Both the position numbers and the translations under genes were made by a program. From positions 1 to 32,508 of the forward strand of contig JACRCK010000112.1 in NCBI GenBank assembly GCA_016219065.1: 32,508 nucleotides of DNA, in the 5' to 3' direction. Source of the stretch: Deltaproteobacteria bacterium. GTDB taxonomy: Bacteria; Desulfobacterota; RBG-13-43-22. Below are positions 21,810 to 31,622 of the stretch, piece after piece; the first letter of the stretch is position 1, and the number at the start of each line of letters is the position of its first letter. Below the pieces are notes generated by a model. That model did not search any database and was not told the origin of the DNA. It saw nothing but the letters and a program-made list of their open reading frames with translations.

Positions 21810-22502
21810 ATGACAAACAAAGCAACCATGCCTAAGATACTGATCGTAGAAGACGATCCCGATATCCGGGAAGTGCTCCGCTTCAACCTGGAAAAAGCGG
21901 GGTATCATCTAGTATTGGCCGACGACGGGGAAAAGGCCTTGGTGCTGGCCCACAAACACGGCCCGGATCTTATTCTGCTGGACCTGATGCTGCCCGGCCT
22001 GGACGGTCTGGAAGTCTGCCGGGCACTGAAACGGGAACCCGCTACCGAGCCCATCCCGGTCATCATGGTAACCGCCAAGGGGGAAGAAATGGATCGGGTG
22101 GTCGGGCTGGAACTGGGTGCCGACGATTACGTCGTCAAACCCTTCAGCATCCGGGAAGTGCTGCTCCGGATCCGCAAGCTCATGGATCGGCAGGAAAAAA
22201 AGGCGGCCCCGGCCATCTTGAAAGCCGAGCCCCTGTTTATGGATCTGGACGGACACACCGCCCGGTTGAAAGATGAAAGGCTGGAATTGACGGCCACGGA
22301 ATTTCGGCTTCTGGCTCATCTGCTGCGATACCGCGGCCGGGTCCAGACCCGGGAAGTCCTCCTGGACAAAGTCTGGGGGTATTCTTTTGAGGGCTACGCC
22401 CGGACGATCGATACCCACATACGGCGTATCCGGAAAAAGCTGGAGGAACACCAGGACCTGATTGAAACGGTCCGGGGGGTGGGTTATCGTTTTCGTGCCT
22501 GA
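21810..22502 (+). CDS. phoB: PhoB-like response regulator (OmpR family)
   Basis: The 230-residue protein has a receiver (residues 8-120) with acidic pocket EDD (14-16), phosphoacceptor Asp58 in LILLDLMLPG, TAK (88-90) and Lys110 in VVKPF, then a winged-helix DNA-binding domain (ELTATEFRLLAHLLRYRG, DTHIRRIRKKLE, TVRGVGYRF). It is followed after 18 bases by a PhoR-like kinase and a few kilobases later by the Pst system, so it should activate phosphate starvation genes. ATG 21810 is preferred because AGGACAGG precedes it; an internal ATG at 21828 lacks a ribosome site. Confidence 0.92.
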   Translation: MTNKATMPKILIVEDDPDIREVLRFNLEKAGYHLVLADDGEKALVLAHKHGPDLILLDLMLPGLDGLEVCRALKREPATEPIPVIMVTAKGEEMDRVVGLELGADDYVVKPFSIREVLLRIRKLMDRQEKKAAPAILKAEPLFMDLDGHTARLKDERLELTATEFRLLAHLLRYRGRVQTREVLLDKVWGYSFEGYARTIDTHIRRIRKKLEEHQDLIETVRGVGYRFRA

Positions 22503-22520: not shown

Positions 22521-24305
22521 ATGATTTATCGCCGCTACTGGAAATTTTTCGGGCTTTTTTTACTGCTGACCGTCCTGGTCACCGGGCTGGCCGCTTCCTA
22601 TATCGGGGAAAAGGTCCGGACCACGCTGCTGAACCAAATCAAGACCGAAATGCAGCGGGATTTAACCCATACTAAAAACCTGATTCAAAAAACATTTCTG
22701 CGGTCGCCCCTCCAGGTCTCCCTGCTGGATCAGGCGGCCAAGGAGCTGGGAACGGGCCTGGGGAAAAGGGTGTCCATCATTTCCGCCGACGGACACCTGC
22801 TGGGCGATTCGGCCCGGGAGCCCCGGACGATCGACCGGACCGACGACTACAGCCATCGGCCGGAGATTATCATGGCCCGGGAAAAAGGGTATGGACAGGT
22901 TATCCGGTTCAGCCCCTTCATGAATACCCAGGCCCTGTTCGCCGCCGCCCCCGTATTCAGGGAACGCCTCCCGGTCGGATTTGTCCGCCTGGCCTGGCCG
23001 CTCAACGAACTGGAGGAAACGGTTTACGACTTCCGACGCCGCCTGATCCTGATGGGCGGCCTGATCGGATCCCTGTCCCTCCTTTTCGGCATTTTTCTGC
23101 TCTGGTGGATGGGCCGCCCCCTCAAAGAGATCTCCGGCATGGCCGAACAGATGGCCGGGGGTAACCTGAAGCAGCCGCTCCATCTCCTGCCCCGGTCGGA
23201 ATTCACCCCCCTGGCCCGGTCCCTGGAGAAAATGTCCAAGGACCTGCGTTTGAAACTGGACCTGCTGGACGGGGAAACCAGCCGTCTCCGGGCCATCCTG
23301 CTGGCCATGCAGGAAGGGGTGCTGGTCACCAATGAAAAGGGATTGATCACCCTGGTCAATCCCTTTCTGCGCCAGGTCCTGGGCGGAGCCGTAACCCTGG
23401 AGAACCGGACCATCCAGGAGGTCTTCATGAACACGGAATTCCAGGAGGCCGTGGATCAGGCCCTGAAAGGGGAAAAATTCCAGCGCCTGGAGATCAGCCT
23501 GGGCTGGGATGTAATCCGGTATTTCGAAGTCCAGGTGGTGCCCCTGATTTCCGCCCACTTAACCCAGGGCGCCGTAGTCCTGTTTCATGACATTACCGAA
23601 CTACGACGCCTGCTCAAGGTCCGCCAGGATTTCGTGGCCAACGCCTCCCATGAATTGCGGACCCCCCTGACGGCCATCAGTGGGGCCTTGGAAACTCTGG
23701 AAAGCGTCTGCCCGGCGGAGGGAGACACCCGGAGATTCCTGGGCATCCTCCAGAAAAACGTCCGGCGCATGGTGTATCTGGTTTCCGACCTGCTCGATCT
23801 GTCCCAACTGGAAGACCAGGAACGGGCCGAACGATTTGTGGATGAAGTCAACGTAGCGGAAGTATTGAAAACGGCTCTATCCGGCATCGCTCCCCAGGCC
23901 CAGGAGAAAAATATCTCCCTATCCCTGGATCTGACCGGGCTGTCGTCCGAGGACTGCTCCCTTTTCTGGGAACGGGAGCGGATTTATCAAGCCATTTTCA
24001 ACCTGCTCGACAACGCCATCAAATACACGCCGCCCGGGGGAAAAGTGGTCTTATCCGCCCGCGAGGGGGAAAAGGAAATCAGCGTTTCGGTCACCGACAC
24101 CGGTCTGGGCATCCCCAGGGAGCATCTACCGCGCATCTTCGAACGTTTTTACCGGGTGGACCGGGACCGCTCCCGCGAACTGGGCGGCACCGGCCTGGGG
24201 CTTTCCATAGTTAAACATATCGTCGAGGCCCACAAAGGGAAGGTCGAAGCCCGCAGCGAACTCGGGCGCGGCTCGACCTTCACGATCACCTTCCCTAAAA
24301 AATAA
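22521..24305 (+). CDS. phoR: PhoR-like phosphate regulon sensor histidine kinase
   Basis: The 594-residue protein has TM1 at about 10-28, an extracytoplasmic sensor region (about 30-172), TM2 at about 175-197, a HAMP domain (GRPLKEISGMAEQMAGGNL), a PAS domain (about 254-358) and HisKA with His377 in NASHELRTPLTAISG. The HATPase domain follows (NLLDNAIKYTPPGG, VTDTGLGIP, ERFYRVDRDRS, LGGTGLGLSIVKHIVE). The periplasmic sensor makes it longer than E. coli PhoR, which has almost no external loop, but this layout is common in other phyla. It forms an operon with phoB and ends at a strong terminator. Confidence 0.92.
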   Translation: MIYRRYWKFFGLFLLLTVLVTGLAASYIGEKVRTTLLNQIKTEMQRDLTHTKNLIQKTFLRSPLQVSLLDQAAKELGTGLGKRVSIISADGHLLGDSAREPRTIDRTDDYSHRPEIIMAREKGYGQVIRFSPFMNTQALFAAAPVFRERLPVGFVRLAWPLNELEETVYDFRRRLILMGGLIGSLSLLFGIFLLWWMGRPLKEISGMAEQMAGGNLKQPLHLLPRSEFTPLARSLEKMSKDLRLKLDLLDGETSRLRAILLAMQEGVLVTNEKGLITLVNPFLRQVLGGAVTLENRTIQEVFMNTEFQEAVDQALKGEKFQRLEISLGWDVIRYFEVQVVPLISAHLTQGAVVLFHDITELRRLLKVRQDFVANASHELRTPLTAISGALETLESVCPAEGDTRRFLGILQKNVRRMVYLVSDLLDLSQLEDQERAERFVDEVNVAEVLKTALSGIAPQAQEKNISLSLDLTGLSSEDCSLFWERERIYQAIFNLLDNAIKYTPPGGKVVLSAREGEKEISVSVTDTGLGIPREHLPRIFERFYRVDRDRSRELGGTGLGLSIVKHIVEAHKGKVEARSELGRGSTFTITFPKK

Positions 24306-24430: not shown

Positions 24431-25696
24431 CTAAAACTTCAACTGAAACCCCAGTTGAAACTGGTCGAAATCTTTCGTGGTCTGGCTTTCAAAATCATTG
24501 TGCTGGTAGGCCGCGAAAGGCATGAACTCCTTGGACCAGTCATAGGACAGCCCCAGGACATAGGTGGTCGTAGCGTTATTGGAGACATCGGTATTGGGAT
24601 CGAAGTTGTAGTACCTGCCGAAGGCCCTCAATTTCTCCACCTTCGGGAGGCGGACGAAACCTTCGACCAGCCAGCCGCTGCGGCTGTTGTCCTCGGTGGA
24701 GGTTAAAGTCCCTTTCCCCCAGTAATATTGTCCGTAAAGAGTGAACCAGGGATGCTGCCAGGCCAGTTGGGCCAGATTGATCTGCGTATCGGGGAAGTCG
24801 TTGGTTTTTCCCTTGGCGGTGAAGTTGTTGTTGGACTGCCCGAACATTCCGTAATAGGACAGCACCAGTCCCTTCAACACCTCGACCCCCGGGGCCGGGC
24901 GGAAATAGACCAGCCCGCCAAAGGGTTTGTTGGTGTTGTTTTCGGAATTGGAGTAACCGGCCCCGTTATAAACACCGATTTGATAACCGGCCCATTTCCC
25001 TGCATAAGTCTTTCCGGCGTACTTGGTAAACCCGTCATCCATTTTTCCGCCGAGCGTCCCCCGGATATTGGCCCCGAAGTCCGCGGAGGCTTGAATGCCG
25101 AACTCATCCAGGAAGTGCTTGCCCTGAACGCGGTAAGGCCAGACATAGGAATCATACTGGTCGGAGGGGGTATGGGTCAACCCCAATTCGGTGACGGTGC
25201 TCCCGAAATACAGGTCGACATAAGCATATTTCATACGGAGTTCCAGCCCGTTGCCCTTGTCGTCGGCATCCCGGGAGGTGAAGAGGTCCGAGGTCAGGTT
25301 GAAGCCCAGCCAGTCATTCAGTTTCCCCGCCAGGGTCAGATAGCCCCGGTTCAGCAGGAACTGATTGGTGGACGGCCCGCCGTCCGCTGTTGACCGCAGG
25401 TTCCATTCGGCGAAGATCGTGGTCCCGAACTTGACCCCCTTCAGGTAGCCGGGCAGAAAATCGCCCTTCTGGCCCACCGCCTTGATTTCTTCCTGCAGCA
25501 CCTCTTTTTCGGCCTTGGCCTGTTTGCGGGCCTCATTCATCAGACCGTCCGCCTCTTCCTGGCTTAGGATGCCCTTCTGCTTCAAAAGGTTGATCAGGTG
25601 CAGGGCGTCGATCTCTCCCGCCTGAACCGGAGGCCAACCTCCCAAAAACCCCAGGAACCCGAAAATCATCAACCATAAACAAATCTTTCTCCTCAT
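24431..25696 (-). CDS. OprP/OprO-like (phosphate-selective) porin
   Basis: The 421-residue protein has a signal peptide (about 1-26, ending PVQAG), then a short helical/coiled stretch (about 30-75, LLKQKGILSQEEADGLMNEA with charged repeats) and a beta-barrel rich in alternating hydrophobic and aromatic residues. It ends in phenylalanine (FQLGFQLKF), the usual barrel-insertion signal. The N-terminal helix followed by a GTTIFAEWNL-type strand is typical of the OprP/OprO porin family. It lies between phoR and pstS with a Pho-box-like promoter, which supports uptake of phosphate or polyphosphate across the outer membrane. ATG 25696 follows AAGGAG; an upstream in-frame start at 25732 is less likely. 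Confidence 0.85.
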   Translation of the reverse strand: MRRKICLWLMIFGFLGFLGGWPPVQAGEIDALHLINLLKQKGILSQEEADGLMNEARKQAKAEKEVLQEEIKAVGQKGDFLPGYLKGVKFGTTIFAEWNLRSTADGGPSTNQFLLNRGYLTLAGKLNDWLGFNLTSDLFTSRDADDKGNGLELRMKYAYVDLYFGSTVTELGLTHTPSDQYDSYVWPYRVQGKHFLDEFGIQASADFGANIRGTLGGKMDDGFTKYAGKTYAGKWAGYQIGVYNGAGYSNSENNTNKPFGGLVYFRPAPGVEVLKGLVLSYYGMFGQSNNNFTAKGKTNDFPDTQINLAQLAWQHPWFTLYGQYYWGKGTLTSTEDNSRSGWLVEGFVRLPKVEKLRAFGRYYNFDPNTDVSNNATTTYVLGLSYDWSKEFMPFAAYQHNDFESQTTKDFDQFQLGFQLKF

Positions 25697-25757
25697 ACTT
25701 GCTCCTTTCTCCTTTTCCTCTTGGGAATTCACTCTATTCAGGGATGATTGGGAAAGG

Positions 25758-25790
25758 ACTGTAGTCCCTTAACGTTACAAAGTCGTGAAG
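25758..25790 (-). promoter_or_regulatory. Candidate Pho box and -10 of the porin gene
   Basis: On the minus strand: CTTCAC, five bases, TGTAAC (25779-25774), ten bases, TACAGT (25763-25758). The proximal half-site and the ten-base gap to the -10 match the pstS promoter; the distal half-site is degenerate. Confidence 0.45.
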
Positions 25791-25846
25791 GCCGAATGAA
25801 ATAAAGGTGACACGCTCAATCAGCCGGGAAATAAAATTCTCCAAAA

Positions 25847-25890
25847 TGTAACCGGATGATCACTCACTTGTTACCGGGGCTGAGTATTCT
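25847..25890 (+). promoter_or_regulatory. Candidate Pho boxes and -10 of the 71-residue ORF
   Basis: TGTAACCGG (25847) and TGTTACCGG (25869) are a near-repeat 22 bases apart, two turns of a Pho box array, with the weaker GATCAC in the intermediate position at 25858. TATTCT (25885-25890) begins ten bases after TGTTAC, the same geometry as at pstS. The rest of the 25697-25923 gap holds the porin promoter on the other strand. Confidence 0.5.
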
Positions 25891-25923
25891 TAGGCGCTTA
25901 GGGGCTGGGCAGAAAGGAACTGT

Positions 25924-26139
25924 ATGAAAATGAAAAAGCTGTTAAAAATTCTGATCCTGGACGGTAGCTCGGATATTACCTACCTGGTCCTCGGTCCGGG
26001 CATTACCATCCGGTCAACCCTTTCCAACGAAAAGGTCGCTCAATTGCTGGAAAAGGAGGCCATGGATTTGATTCTCGGCCCCCAAGGCCTTTACACCAGG
26101 CCTGCGGCCCGGAAATTCCCCCGGGACAAAGCGGCTTGA
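25924..26139 (+). CDS. 71-residue small protein, receiver-like, between porin and pstS
   Basis: The ATG follows AAAGGAA. The sequence LLKILILDGSSDITYLVLGPG, followed by SNEKVAQLLEKEAMDLILGP, resembles a shortened response-regulator receiver: a first strand KILIL with D/SSD in place of the acidic pocket, a helix and a DLIL strand. The phosphoacceptor Asp expected after DLIL is replaced by Gly-Pro, so it should not be phosphorylated. There is no signal peptide or membrane segment. A strong promoter starts at its stop codon and drives pstS. I do not recognise the family. Position and candidate Pho box suggest membership of the phosphate regulon; function is unknown. Confidence 0.65.
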   Translation: MKMKKLLKILILDGSSDITYLVLGPGITIRSTLSNEKVAQLLEKEAMDLILGPQGLYTRPAARKFPRDKAA

Positions 26140-26212: not shown

Positions 26213-26245
26213 TGTAACAGAACCGTAACAATTAAATCTTATTTT
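26213..26245 (+). promoter_or_regulatory. Pho box and -10 of pstSCAB
   Basis: TGTAACA (26213-26219) and CGTAACA (26224-26230) are direct repeats exactly 11 bases apart; ten bases after CGTAAC comes TATTTT (26240-26245). A box of 11-base repeats replacing the -35, about ten bases before the -10, is the architecture of PhoB-activated promoters. Confidence 0.65.
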
Positions 26246-26273: not shown

Positions 26274-27170
26274 ATGAAAAAATATTTAATCTCAATGATA
26301 AGTGTCTTGAGTTTGGGGTTGGGACTGGTTGCCGGCCCGGCCGTGGCTAAAACTTTCCTGCAGGTAAAAGGCTCGGACACGGAAGTCAATGTCGTTCAGC
26401 GTCTGGCTGAAAATTACATGAAAAAAGATCCCAACATCAGTATCGCCGTAACCGGCGGAGGCTCCGGGGTGGGAATCGCCGCCATCATCAACAAGACCAC
26501 CGACCTGTCCAACTCCTCCCGCCCCATGAAGGATTCGGAAATCGCCAAAGCCAAGGCCAACGGCGTAAATCCCGTGGGGGTGGCCTTTGCCGTGGACGGC
26601 CTCTCGGTGATCGTCAATCCTAAAAATGCCATTAAATCGCTGACGATGGACCAGATCGGGCAGATCTTTCGGGGAGAGGTGACCAACTGGAAGCAGGTAG
26701 GCGGTCCCGACGGCCCCATCACCTTGTATGGCCGCCAACCCAACTCCGGTACTTTTGTATTCTTCCGGGAAGGCGTGGTCAAGGGTGACTACTCCAATAA
26801 AATGAACCAGATGAACGGCAACGCCCAGATCCTGGAAGCGGTTAAAAAGGATGCCGGAGGGATCGGCTACGTGGGCATCGGCTACGTGATGGACGACGCC
26901 GGCAAAGTGGTGGCCGGAATCCACGTCCTGGAAGTGGCCAAGGACAGCCGCAGCAAGCCCGTTTCCCCTCTGCAACTGGAAAACATCATGAGCGGCGCCT
27001 ATCCGATAACCCGGCCCCTCTACCAGTACTTCGACAAGAACAACCAGGCCAAGGTGGAGGGCTTCCTCAAATATGAACTCGGCCCGGAAGGCCTGGCCAT
27101 CATCAAAAAGGACGGTTTCTATCCTTTGACCGAGCAGTGGAAGAAACACAATGCCCAACTCGGCTTCTAG
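26274..27170 (+). CDS. pstS: PstS phosphate-binding protein
   Basis: The 298-residue protein has a signal peptide (about 1-25, ending PAVAK) and the phosphate-binding fold: LQVKGSDTEVN near the N-terminus, AVTGGGSGVGIAAI, and the phosphate-binding SGT motif in RQPNSGTFVFF. FYPLTEQWKK is near the C-terminus. It captures phosphate in the periplasm for PstCAB. The ATG follows AAGGAG at a spacing of ten. It is the first gene of a complete pstSCAB operon, nine bases before pstC. Confidence 0.95.
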   Translation: MKKYLISMISVLSLGLGLVAGPAVAKTFLQVKGSDTEVNVVQRLAENYMKKDPNISIAVTGGGSGVGIAAIINKTTDLSNSSRPMKDSEIAKAKANGVNPVGVAFAVDGLSVIVNPKNAIKSLTMDQIGQIFRGEVTNWKQVGGPDGPITLYGRQPNSGTFVFFREGVVKGDYSNKMNQMNGNAQILEAVKKDAGGIGYVGIGYVMDDAGKVVAGIHVLEVAKDSRSKPVSPLQLENIMSGAYPITRPLYQYFDKNNQAKVEGFLKYELGPEGLAIIKKDGFYPLTEQWKKHNAQLGF

Positions 27171-27179
27171 GGGCTCCAC

Positions 27180-28082
27180 ATGGAAATGGCCGGGATGAGC
27201 CGAAACTGGCGGCAATTTCAGGACGCCTCCATCCACCGTTTTTTCCAATTCAACGGGGTGCTGTCCATCCTGATCCTCCTGGGTATTTTCTTCATTCTCT
27301 TCAAGGACGGGCTGCCGGCCCTGCAGCAACTGGGAGCCGGCAGCTTCATCCGCATGATCTGGAACCCTACCTCCTTCGTGCAGGAGACCTACGGCCTGGG
27401 GGCCATGATCATCAGCACCCTGATGGTCACCTTTTTAGCCCTGCTCATCGCCGTCCCGGTCGGCTTGGGGTGCGCCGCTTATCTCTCCGAGGTGGCCCCC
27501 AACTGGGTCCGGGAAACCTTGAAGCCGGTGATCGAAATTCTGGCCGGTATTCCTTCGGTGGTCCTGGGCTTTTTGGGGATCGTGGTGGTCGGTCCCTGGA
27601 TCGCCCGGGTCTTCCATCTGCCCAACGGCCTCAATGCCCTCAACGGGGCCATACTGCTGGCGGTTATGAGCCTGCCCACCATCATCAGCATCTCCGAGGA
27701 TGCCATCTCGTCGGTACCCCGGGCCTATAAAGAGGCTTCCCTGGCCCTGGGGGCCAACAAGTGGCAGACCCTGATCCGGGTGGTCGTCCCATCGGCCCTT
27801 TCCGGGATCATCGCCTCGGTGATGCTCGGCATGGGGCGGGCCATCGGGGAGACCATGACCGTGCTCATGGCCACCGGCAACGCCCTGAAAACGCCGACCC
27901 ATATTCTGGAGGCCGTGCGGACTATGACGGCCACCATCGCCATCGAGCTGGGCGAGGTGCCCTTCGGCTCCGAGCATTACCACGGATTGTTCGTCATCGG
28001 CTTCGTCCTGTTCGTCATGACTTTCCTGGTCAACCTGGTGGCCGATATCGTCCTGGCCAGATACCAGGAAGTGGAGCGTTAG
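27180..28082 (+). CDS. pstC: PstC phosphate ABC transporter permease
   Basis: A 300-residue inner-membrane protein with about six hydrophobic segments (first at about 25-43) and the ABC permease EAA loop in AYKEASLALGANKWQTLIRVVVPSAL. VGLGCAAYLSEVAP and MGRAIGETMTVLMATGN are typical of PstC. Alternative nearby ATGs (27186, 27195) cannot be excluded; AGGGG precedes 27180. It forms the channel with PstA. Confidence 0.94.
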   Translation: MEMAGMSRNWRQFQDASIHRFFQFNGVLSILILLGIFFILFKDGLPALQQLGAGSFIRMIWNPTSFVQETYGLGAMIISTLMVTFLALLIAVPVGLGCAAYLSEVAPNWVRETLKPVIEILAGIPSVVLGFLGIVVVGPWIARVFHLPNGLNALNGAILLAVMSLPTIISISEDAISSVPRAYKEASLALGANKWQTLIRVVVPSALSGIIASVMLGMGRAIGETMTVLMATGNALKTPTHILEAVRTMTATIAIELGEVPFGSEHYHGLFVIGFVLFVMTFLVNLVADIVLARYQEVER

Positions 28083-28084
28083 CC

Positions 28085-28945
28085 GTGATCAACAAGTCCG
28101 TCACCGAAAAGATCGGCTTTGCCGTTTTAGGACTCTGCGGGCTCATGGTCGTTTTGACGCTCTTCGGCATACTCTGGGACATCGCCTATCACGGGGCCGC
28201 GGTAATCAACTGGGAATTTCTCACCCAGCCGCCCCGGGAAGGGATGACCCAGGGGGGAATTTTCCCGGCCTTGCTGGGGACCCTTTTCGTAAGTCTGATC
28301 ACGGTGCTCCTGTCCGTTCCCCTGGGCATGTTCAGCGCCATCTACCTGAACGAATACGCCCGTCAAGGGCGGCTGGTCCGGATGATCCGCCTTTCCATCC
28401 GCAATCTGTCCGGGGTCCCTTCCATCGTCTACGGACTTTTCGGCGTGGCCCTGTTCGTCCGGGTTTTTCATTTTGGGGCCAGCATCCTTTCGTCCGGACT
28501 GACCCTGGGTTTGTTGACCCTGCCCTGGACCATCACGGCCAGTGAAGAGGCCCTGAAAACCGTTCCCAAGTCTTATCGGGACGGGGCCCTGGCCCTGGGG
28601 GCCACCCAATGGCAGGCCATCCGCACCAATGTGCTGCCCTACGCCATCCCGGGCATGCTGACCGGCGCCATTCTGGGCCTGGCCCGTGCGGCCGGTGAAA
28701 CCGCTCCGATCCTTTTCACCGGGGCCGCTTTCTTCATCCCCGACCTGCCCAGGACCCTGTTCGACCAGTTCATGGCCCTGCCCTACCACCTGTACATTCT
28801 ATCGACCCAGCATCAGGACATCGCCACGGTGCGCCCCATCGCCTACGGAACCGCCCTGGTGCTTATCGCCCTCGTCCTCTGCCTGAACTTCGTCGCGGTG
28901 CTGATTCGGTATCATTACCGGAAGAAAGCCAGAATGGCGCAATAA
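28085..28945 (+). CDS. pstA: PstA phosphate ABC transporter permease
   Basis: The protein has 286 residues from GTG 28085, two bases after the pstC stop, with GGAG just upstream; a longer in-frame extension lies inside pstC and is not used. It has about six membrane segments and the EAA loop in [43 protein letters not shown] and [17 protein letters not shown] are typical of PstA. The stop shares one base with the pstB start. Confidence 0.94.
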
Positions 28946-29754
28946 TGGTAGCGATCGGAATAGACAAAAAATCGACTAGCGACGGGGGGTCCAACAATCA
29001 TCCGGTCAAAATCAGCGTCCAGGATCTGAATTTCTATTATGGCTCCCAGAAAGCCCTGGAAAATATCGACATGGACATTCCCGCCAACCAGGTTACGGCC
29101 TTCATCGGTCCTTCCGGGTGCGGGAAAAGCACTTTCCTGCGCTGTTTCAACCGGATGAACGAGACCATCCCGGGGACCCGGATCGAAGGGACGATCCTGC
29201 TGGACGGCAGCAACCTGTACGGCCCGGAAGTCGACGTGGTGGAGGTACGGCGCCGGGTGGGCATGGTCTTCCAGAAATCCAACCCTTTTCCCAAGACCAT
29301 TTTCGACAACGTGGCCTATGGCCTGCGCATCAACGGGATGAAGGACAAACTAAAAATCGCCGAAATCGTGGAAAAGAGCCTGAGGGATGCGGCCATTTGG
29401 GAAGAGGTCAAAGATCGGCTGTACGAATCGGCTCTGGGGCTCTCCGGCGGTCAGCAGCAGCGCCTGTGCATCGCCCGGGCCCTGGCCGTGCAGCCGGAAG
29501 TGATCCTCATGGATGAACCGGCCTCGGCCCTCGATCCCATCGCCACCCAGAAAATCGAGGACCTGATTCAAAAGCTGAAGAATAACTATACCATCGTCAT
29601 CGTCACCCACAATATGCAGCAGGCGGCGAGGGTTTCGGACCTGACCGCCTTTTTTTACCTGGGGAAACTGATCGAAGTCAACGAGACGGCCATTCTGTTT
29701 ACCCGCCCCAAATTGAGACAGACCGAAGATTACATCACCGGCCGTTTCGGGTAA
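28945..29754 (+). CDS. pstB: PstB phosphate ABC transporter ATPase
   Basis: The 269-residue protein has Walker [10 protein letters not shown] (about 55-63), a Q-loop in [20 protein letters not shown], signature [15 protein letters not shown], Walker [14 protein letters not shown] and H-loop VTHNMQQA, all typical of PstB. It energises uptake through PstCA. A terminator follows at once, so the usual phoU is not in this operon. Confidence 0.96.
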
Positions 29755-29800: not shown

Positions 29801-29942
29801 TCCCTGCTGGAAGCGTTGCGGGTCCGGGACTCCTTCCGCCCCTTCCCTCAAAAACCACACGGCTAATCGTCGCGGGAAGGGCCGTGCCTGCACCGCCTTT
29901 TTTCCCTTCGAAATATGTTTTCCCGGAAACCCCTTCGTTTTG

Positions 29943-29948
29943 TATAAT
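29943..29948 (+). promoter_or_regulatory. -10 element of the AhpF-like gene
   Basis: A perfect TATAAT in TTTTGTATAATATC, 37 bases before the ATG. No clear -35 is seen (TTCCCG at 17 bases), which may mean activator dependence. Confidence 0.5.
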
Positions 29949-29984
29949 ATCTCGTTACATCAAGGTGCAAGAGGAGGAGGCGGA

Positions 29985-31622
29985 ATGAACAAGACCCCAG
30001 CCCGGGAAAAAAACGATCAGGAGGTCCTGCTGGATCAGTTGCAGCGCCAGGTCGCGGCCGTATTTGAAAAAATGCCCTATGACGTCCCTTTGCTGCTGTT
30101 CACCGACCCCCCCAAAAACGAGGTTTTCATACAAACCGCCCGGGAGGTCATTCGGACCTTTCGGAATATTTCCTCGAAAATCTCCCTGCGGGAATACGGC
30201 CTGACCCACAAGCTGGCCAAAAAATACAACGTGGACCGGGTGCCGACGCTGCTCTTCGACCCGGATCGCTATCCGTTGCGCTGGCTGGGAGTGCCGATCG
30301 GCGAAGAAGGACGGACCTTTTTGGAAATGCTGTTGATTATGGGTTATCGTGAGCCGGGCCTCGAGCGGGAAACCCAGAAAATCCTGGAGCGGATCAAGGA
30401 ACCCCGGGCCATGCAACTCTTCGTCAGTCCCACCTGCCCCTACTGCCCGCAACAGGCCATCAACGCCATCAAAGCGGTGATCGCCCGGCCCGAACTTTTT
30501 TCCCTGGAAATCATCGACATTCAGGTCAATCCGGATCTGGGCGACCGGTATAACGCCTTCGGGGTCCCCCTGACCCTGGCCAACGGCATCCAAATCGCTC
30601 AAGGGGCCCAGCCGGAAGAACTGTTTGCCTATTCGCTCGAAAAGATGGCCGAGCAAACCATTTATATACCCGACAATGACGCCCCGCTGGTCGAAACCGA
30701 ATTGGCGATCGTGGGCGGCGGCCCGGCCGGATTGACCGCCGGGATCTACGCCGCCCGCAGCGGCCTCAAGACCGTCATCGTCGAAAAGGGGGCCTTGGGC
30801 GGGCAAGTGGCCACCACCCCCGTAGTGGAAAATTATCCCAGCTTCACCCAGGTCGGCGGGAAGGCCCTGGTGGATCTCATGGTCAGCCACGCCCTGCAAT
30901 ACCTCCCCATTTTTCAGGGCGAGGAGGTCATGGAAATCCGCCCGGGCCTGCCCGTGGAATTACTGACCCCCCGGCGAAAAATTCAAGCCCGGGCGGTCCT
31001 GCTGGCCACGGGGGCGGTCTATCGCCACCTGGGAGTTCCCGGGGAACAGCGGTTGGCCGGTCGCGGCGTCAGTTATTGTTCCACCTGCGATGGTCCTTTG
31101 TTCAAGGGCAAAAAAGTGATCATGGTCGGCGGTGGCGACAGCGCGGTCACCGAGGCCCTGCATCTGCACCACCTGGGGGTGGGAGTGACCCTGGTCCACC
31201 GGAAAGACACCCTGCGGGCCCAGGAACACCTGGTCAAAAGCCTCCAGGAAAGCGCGCTGCCGGTGATCTGGGATACGGAAATCAAGGAAATAAAGGGTAC
31301 GGCGCGGGTTGAGGAAGTGGTGCTTTATAATAACCGCACCCGGGAATTGACCTCCCGGCCCGTCGACGGGGTCTTCATCGCCATCGGTTACGAACCGGCC
31401 ACGGCCCTGGCCCAAAAAATCGGGGCGGTCTTGACCCCCGACGGCTATATCCAACACGACGCCCGGCACCGCACCAATATCCCGGGGGTCTATTCCGCCG
31501 GGGACGTGGAAGGGGGTTTCAAGCAGATCGTCATCGCCGCCGGCCAGGGCTCCGAGGCCGCCCTGGCCATCTATGAAGATTTAATCCATCCCTACTGGCG
31601 GGCCTCTAACCCCGCCGTTTGA
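29985..31622 (+). CDS. AhpF/thioredoxin-reductase-like flavoprotein with N-terminal thioredoxin-fold region
   Basis: The 545-residue protein starts at an ATG after GAGGAGGAGG. Residues 10-230 form two thioredoxin-like folds as in AhpF; the first has no CxxC, the second has the active CPYC (Cys151, Cys154) in VSPTCPYCPQQAINAI. The flavoprotein part has FAD site AIVGGGPAGLTAG (about 241), redox Cys365-x2-Cys368 in YCSTCDGP, NAD(P)H site MVGGGDSAVTEA (about 380) and the FAD-contacting YSAGDVEGG near the C-terminus. It should pass electrons from NAD(P)H through both CxxC pairs to a peroxiredoxin or another disulfide partner; no ahpC is adjacent. The 3' end overlaps a convergent gene by 17 bases. 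Confidence 0.9.
   Translation: MNKTPAREKNDQEVLLDQLQRQVAAVFEKMPYDVPLLLFTDPPKNEVFIQTAREVIRTFRNISSKISLREYGLTHKLAKKYNVDRVPTLLFDPDRYPLRWLGVPIGEEGRTFLEMLLIMGYREPGLERETQKILERIKEPRAMQLFVSPTCPYCPQQAINAIKAVIARPELFSLEIIDIQVNPDLGDRYNAFGVPLTLANGIQIAQGAQPEELFAYSLEKMAEQTIYIPDNDAPLVETELAIVGGGPAGLTAGIYAARSGLKTVIVEKGALGGQVATTPVVENYPSFTQVGGKALVDLMVSHALQYLPIFQGEEVMEIRPGLPVELLTPRRKIQARAVLLATGAVYRHLGVPGEQRLAGRGVSYCSTCDGPLFKGKKVIMVGGGDSAVTEALHLHHLGVGVTLVHRKDTLRAQEHLVKSLQESALPVIWDTEIKEIKGTARVEEVVLYNNRTRELTSRPVDGVFIAIGYEPATALAQKIGAVLTPDGYIQHDARHRTNIPGVYSAGDVEGGFKQIVIAAGQGSEAALAIYEDLIHPYWRASNPAV

Follow-up and report, generated by a model that had tools for sequence, protein, structure and literature searches.

A frame of 71 codons lies directly upstream of pstS in a phosphate regulon, and the question was whether it encodes a protein, what that protein is derived from, and whether it has a role in phosphate signaling. 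The locus belongs to the window, i.e., the complete stretch of 32,508 nucleotides that was analyzed, and all coordinates refer to it. On the plus strand it contains genes for a phoB-type response regulator (21810–22502; Response_reg and Trans_reg_C domains) and a phoR-type histidine kinase (22521–24305; HAMP, PAS, HisKA, and HATPase_c domains). A divergent porin-like gene with a weak Porin_5 match follows on the minus strand (24431–25732) and is kept at the same place in the sister species. The small frame (25924–26139, plus strand) is 3.7 kb away from phoB and is followed on the same strand by pstS (26274–27170; PBP_like_2, E 3.6e-42), a pstC-type permease gene (27180–28082; BPD_transp_1), a frame with a second, pstA-type permease (27761–28945; BPD_transp_1 at residues 186–390), the true start of which is later than the start of the open frame, and the gene for the pstB ATPase (28945–29754; ABC_tran). 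Behind pstB, a protein of 560 amino acids with a thioredoxin-like domain and a pyridine nucleotide-disulphide oxidoreductase is encoded at 29940–31622. The first-pass annotation had assigned special interest to the small frame because phoU is absent from the operon. This holds for the pst operon, but the genome encodes PhoU twice at other sites (C368 and C185), and therefore the missing PhoU was dropped as a rationale for the small protein.

The small frame has an ATG start and a TGA stop, and an AGGA resembling a ribosome site is located 5 nt upstream of the ATG (25915–25918, plus strand). Thus, its own ribosome site and its position directly before pstS were as had been described. The sister species (G001) has an orthologue at the matching locus, with the same arrangement of phoB-phoR, divergent porin gene, small frame, and pstS. 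The orthologue has the same length of 71 codons, 52% amino-acid identity, and not a single indel (E 8.9e-18). When the 69 nucleotide differences were simulated neutrally, the frame stayed open in just about 20% of the runs, and an open frame together with a BLOSUM score at least as high as the observed one had a joint P of 0.0003 (0.03%). This shows that the frame is coding, though the constraint is weak. The short length and the weak selection would be in line with a chance open reading frame, but this explanation is extremely unlikely, because the coding test and the membership in a protein family (E 3.1e-22 against the family profile, of which the protein itself is a member) speak against it; family membership alone had already ruled it out. 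Taken together, the family search, the same-locus orthologue, the coding test, and the profile comparison identify 25924–26139 as a real, weakly constrained gene, and its product (MKMKKLLKILILDGSSDITYLVLGPGITIRSTLSNEKVAQLLEKEAMDLILGPQGLYTRPAARKFPRDKAA) as a half-receiver family protein of 71 amino acids, referred to below as the pst copy.

When the source genome (G000) and 58 relatives were searched, homologues were present in each of the five genomes from the source organism's own taxonomic family, which here represents the whole class; these genomes have been deposited as Deltaproteobacteria or Thermodesulfobacteriota MAGs. The profile found members in each of the five, three in G000, three in G001, one in G002, about eight in G003, and about 11 in G004. 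The E-values per genome were strong, and the family alignment comprised 24 members from all five genomes. The profile was also used to search 395 genomes of the phylum, and outside of the class nothing was retrieved at E 1e-5 except for four full response regulators; thus no member was found among the approximately 390 genomes of the phylum outside the class. When 84,980 species genomes were scanned with a narrower alignment, matches were confined to the same class, including Deltaproteobacteria bacterium RBG_13_43_22, an NC_groundwater_1539 MAG, and the Thermodesulfobacteriota MAG Prado115. Viral contigs and plasmids contained no relatives of the family, which makes phages or plasmids improbable carriers of the copies. 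The members share the consensus KILHIDxDxxIxYxIIRxGxxIxSxxSLExAxxLLKxxxFDLILSEPxNxAIL, and sequence searches of Pfam, NCBIfam, and PDB with the family gave no significant match. In the literature covered, which leaves out most subscription papers, no paper was found on truncated or partial receivers, and likewise none on the class name RBG-13-43-22. The proteins form an undescribed, class-restricted family of short half-receivers.

The relationship to receivers was revealed by profile-profile comparison. With hhalign, the family profile matched 36 receivers from these loci with a probability of 96.5% and a score of 51.3, while 150 column shuffles reached a maximum of 19.4 and 26 decoy or unrelated families a maximum of 21.2. 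The alignment spanned 47 columns with a single gap of four residues in alpha1, and it was confined to the first receiver half. All significant outgroup matches of the family profile were receivers, and they had one common register, in which the Glu of the SEP motif aligns with the phosphoacceptor Asp that closes beta3. In most members, an acidic residue (the Glu or Asp from "SEP/SDP/ADP", typically Glu) occupies this column, and the window protein has a Pro there. The acidic pair after beta1 is reduced to one acidic residue (ID) followed by a variable position in most members; the window protein has LDGSSD there. The conserved Thr/Ser and Lys of beta4 and beta5 are absent, because the protein ends before these elements. 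At the sequence level, the earlier description as a shortened receiver that lacks the phosphoacceptor Asp was therefore right, and the profile similarity indicates that the family derives from the first half of a receiver (beta1 to beta3). In Pfam searches, the window protein had no match to any Pfam family at E ≤ 1, and none of the 24 members matched Response_reg (PF00072) at E ≤ 0.5. As active-site residues and the second half are missing, the members cannot be phosphorylated like a receiver.

The predicted structure differed from a simply shortened receiver. AlphaFold modeled the window protein with a mean pLDDT of 78.5 as E7-12 E18-24 E27-33 H35-44 E49-52 E55-57, and a more typical member, L046, with the same order of elements and a pLDDT of about 93 over residues 11–50. 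In both models the second strand occupies the place of the receiver helix alpha1, and the (beta-alpha)5 fold is absent. The stretch equivalent to alpha1 has a higher propensity for strand than for helix, yet its hydrophobic moment still peaks at 100 degrees. Because both models rest on an alignment of 24 sequences, the fold change is a prediction only. A Foldseek search with the two models gave no match at E ≤ 0.001; the best, non-significant matches were RNase H-like TsaB/YeaZ proteins (E 0.08–0.2, TM about 0.33), and receivers were missing from the best 50. The high local confidence for L046, the order strand-strand-strand-helix-strand, and these matches would fit an independent mini-domain with RNase H-like topology, which would have become similar to receivers in beta1 and alpha2-beta3 by convergence. 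However, the similarity to the receiver profile is far above every control and extends over 47 columns with one small gap, the significant outgroup matches are receivers only, and a single TsaB sequence reached an hhalign score of just 14, within the control range. An origin independent of receivers is thus very unlikely.

Two features of the genomic context connect the family with two-component systems. At L035:3884-4495, a family member and a complete receiver form a single reading frame, with the receiver in the C-terminal position (Response_reg E 4.3e-34, residues 73–185); this receiver is of the NarL type and has no DNA-binding domain. In addition, eight of the 24 members are located within 1 kb of a receiver gene, seven of them on the same strand, compared to 1.04 expected from receiver densities, for which the totals of G003 and G004 are estimates. 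After orthologous pairs had been collapsed, 7 of 19 members were near receivers versus 0.86 expected (P 1.1e-5). In three cases (L039, L040, and L045), a similar single-domain receiver is encoded 84–394 bp upstream of the member and on the same strand, an arrangement that may go back to one ancestral event, and 6 of 18 were still near receivers when one more member was dropped for shared ancestry. Roughly one half of the members have no two-component gene nearby, and their neighbors include aroK, a radical SAM gene, and cytochrome genes. The fusion and the proximity to receivers support a predicted function of the family as modulators in two-component signaling. Four members in three genomes are preceded directly by a gene for an 81-amino-acid protein with cysteines (IDCPFQPGNLKISxxACLKRR...CQxCPI) and without a Pfam match (L048:7192-7437, L049:7233-7478, L096:6282-6539, and L095:408-782), and the two genes probably represent a conserved gene pair.

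Given the receiver ancestry, the receiver fusion, and the receiver proximity, the most probable mechanism of the family is binding to a two-component partner. Family members would bind a kinase or a true receiver independently of phosphorylation and would thereby tune the activity of the partner. At the pst locus, PhoR or PhoB, encoded just upstream, would be the natural partners. We infer the binding, the identity of the partner, and the direction of the effect. Receivers usually contact kinases by a face that includes alpha1, and this face would be lost with the beta-hairpin that is predicted instead of alpha1, which counts against the binding model.

Pseudo-receivers are frequent, and how they are controlled is poorly understood; to our knowledge, all that have been described keep the whole receiver fold. 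In comparison with the receiver domain (PF00072), the family shares the homology from beta1 to beta3, the one acidic residue after beta1, and the alpha2-beta3 segment "EALxLLKKExFDLIxSD", but it consists of the first half only, alpha1 is four residues shorter and predicted to be a strand, the phospho-Asp is replaced by Glu (Pro in the window protein), the region with Thr/Ser and Lys is missing, and no member reaches the Pfam model. The small size and the stand-alone nature are reminiscent of CheY/Spo0F-type single-domain regulators, and L039, L040, and L045 are encoded just downstream of such a protein, but such regulators are about 120 residues long and represent full receivers that can be phosphorylated. 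Like the pseudo-receivers (PsR/ALR), the family is related to receivers, lacks catalytic residues, and cannot be controlled by Asp phosphorylation. Proteins of that class are recognizable as receivers in which at least one of five catalytic residues is missing. They function without phosphorylation and retain a complete (beta-alpha)5 domain, which also applies to the six minor types of Pfam (Bourret et al., 2025, PMC12632262). In contrast, the family represents half a domain that Pfam does not recognize as a receiver, and it did not match any of the six minor types. Another parallel is offered by the small DUF1127 proteins, which bind PhoR and control pst genes (PMC12501420). They are also short stand-alone proteins, and the window protein is likewise proposed to contact PhoR/PhoB and to influence pst genes, but here PhoR binding is a proposal only, the sequences are unrelated, and the DUF1127 Pfam model matched neither the window protein nor the 24 members. 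A half-receiver family that has multiplied within a single bacterial class and occurs beside true receivers, or in fusion with one, would reveal how large a part of a receiver a signaling role requires, and the predicted change from helix to strand would be a rare natural fold change between homologues.

The evolution of the pst copy bears on its role in phosphate regulation. Between G000 and G001 it has a dN of 0.36 and a dS of 0.66 (dN/dS 0.55), while phoB, phoR, pstS, and the porin gene have dN/dS values of 0.09–0.17, and an aroK-linked family member, compared for the same genome pair, is under purifying selection with a value of 0.076. Its DNA identity to G001 (68%) does not exceed that of the flanking intergenic DNA (69–72%). 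Both family motifs, HID and SEP, have been lost, and the hydrophobic core, the RST and DLILGP segments, and the conserved C-terminal tail have been retained. In a family tree in which most forks are weak, the branch of the pst pair comprises 2.05 changes per site and is the longest save that of a remnant in G004, which has no firm position. This short remnant of the other genus (C61:16816-16911, E 1.2e-4) precedes pstS and is itself immediately preceded by a stop, and the same locus in G003 contains no such frame. Hence, the homologue search did find a family and a copy before pstS in the sister species, where the frame is intact and has a coding signature, but the conservation of the reading frame does not extend to G003 and G004. 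The proposal of a decoy or modulator of PhoB/PhoR fared accordingly: the link to two-component systems stands at the level of the family, whereas a Pho-specific role is weakened by the loss of the motifs, the faster evolution than that of the neighbors, the remnant in G004, and the absence in G003. Such a role of the pst copy is possible, but not strongly favored.

These results leave several explanations to be weighed. Tentatively, and with somewhat less than even confidence, the pst copy is regarded as a fast-evolving member of a class-restricted half-receiver family that would bind a two-component partner without phosphorylation, with PhoR and PhoB as the natural partners at this locus. It is also conceivable, and only somewhat less likely, that it is a decaying paralogue under nearly relaxed selection without a present role in phosphate control, while the family is functional elsewhere. 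The elevated dN/dS (0.55 versus 0.08–0.17 for the neighbors and the other family member), the long branch, the lost motifs, and the G004 remnant with stops at the same place, together with the lack of any frame in G003, are what decay would produce. However, the frames of both species are open at exactly 71 codons with a conserved C-terminal tail, core and segments are kept, and neutral histories would leave an open frame in only one of five cases and rarely with the observed coding constraint. The present evidence is thus almost evenly balanced between simple decay and a role at PhoR or PhoB that is weak or has diverged recently. An extension of the binding model to the whole lineage appears unlikely: the half-receiver mini-protein, with alpha1 turned into a strand and a new small fold, would have been multiplied until each genome had a dozen of them, which would serve as dedicated modulators of nearby two-component systems without being phosphorylatable themselves, including one inserted into the Pho regulon. 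For phosphate regulation as such, the finding is of lesser importance, as the pst copy is the most degraded one.

A further explanation assigns the function to the position of the gene, as a cis-acting leader whose translation between a distal element and the pstS promoter would tune pst expression, while the peptide would matter little. A canonical Pho box (TGTAACAGAACCGTAACA, 26213–26230, plus strand) is indeed present between the small gene and pstS; 0.01 occurrences were expected by chance, and it is kept in G000, G001, G003, and G004. Upstream of the gene lies a putative regulatory element (CCAAAATGTAACCGG...TGTTACCGG, 25841–25877, plus strand) with two near-identical 9-mers, TGTNACCGG, at 25847–25855 and 25869–25877, i.e., 22 bp apart, and matching TGTNACCTG copies are found in G001. 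The left part of the element is conserved in four genomes, one of which lacks the gene, and CCAAAATGT.A.C is common to all four. PhoB half-sites have a period of 11 bp, and 22 bp is twice this distance; control by PhoB through the spaced repeats is therefore possible. A strict direct-repeat pattern of degenerate half-sites matched nothing upstream of the gene. Of the Pho-box-like promoter that had been proposed for the gene, the repeat pair remains, but the canonical box lies on its other side, before pstS. The location between the upstream element and the proximal Pho box and the weak amino-acid constraint would suit a leader. On the other hand, the gene belongs to a protein family with sequence conservation at unrelated loci, pstS likely has its own promoter with the proximal Pho box, a part of the upstream element persists in G003 where the gene is absent, and a terminator-like site was not found in the stretch. 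A leader function is therefore quite unlikely. Between the porin-like gene and the small gene, TTAACGTTACAAAG (25760–25790) is also shared with G001; its minus-strand reading, CTTTGTAACGTTAA, might be a regulatory half-site of the porin gene.
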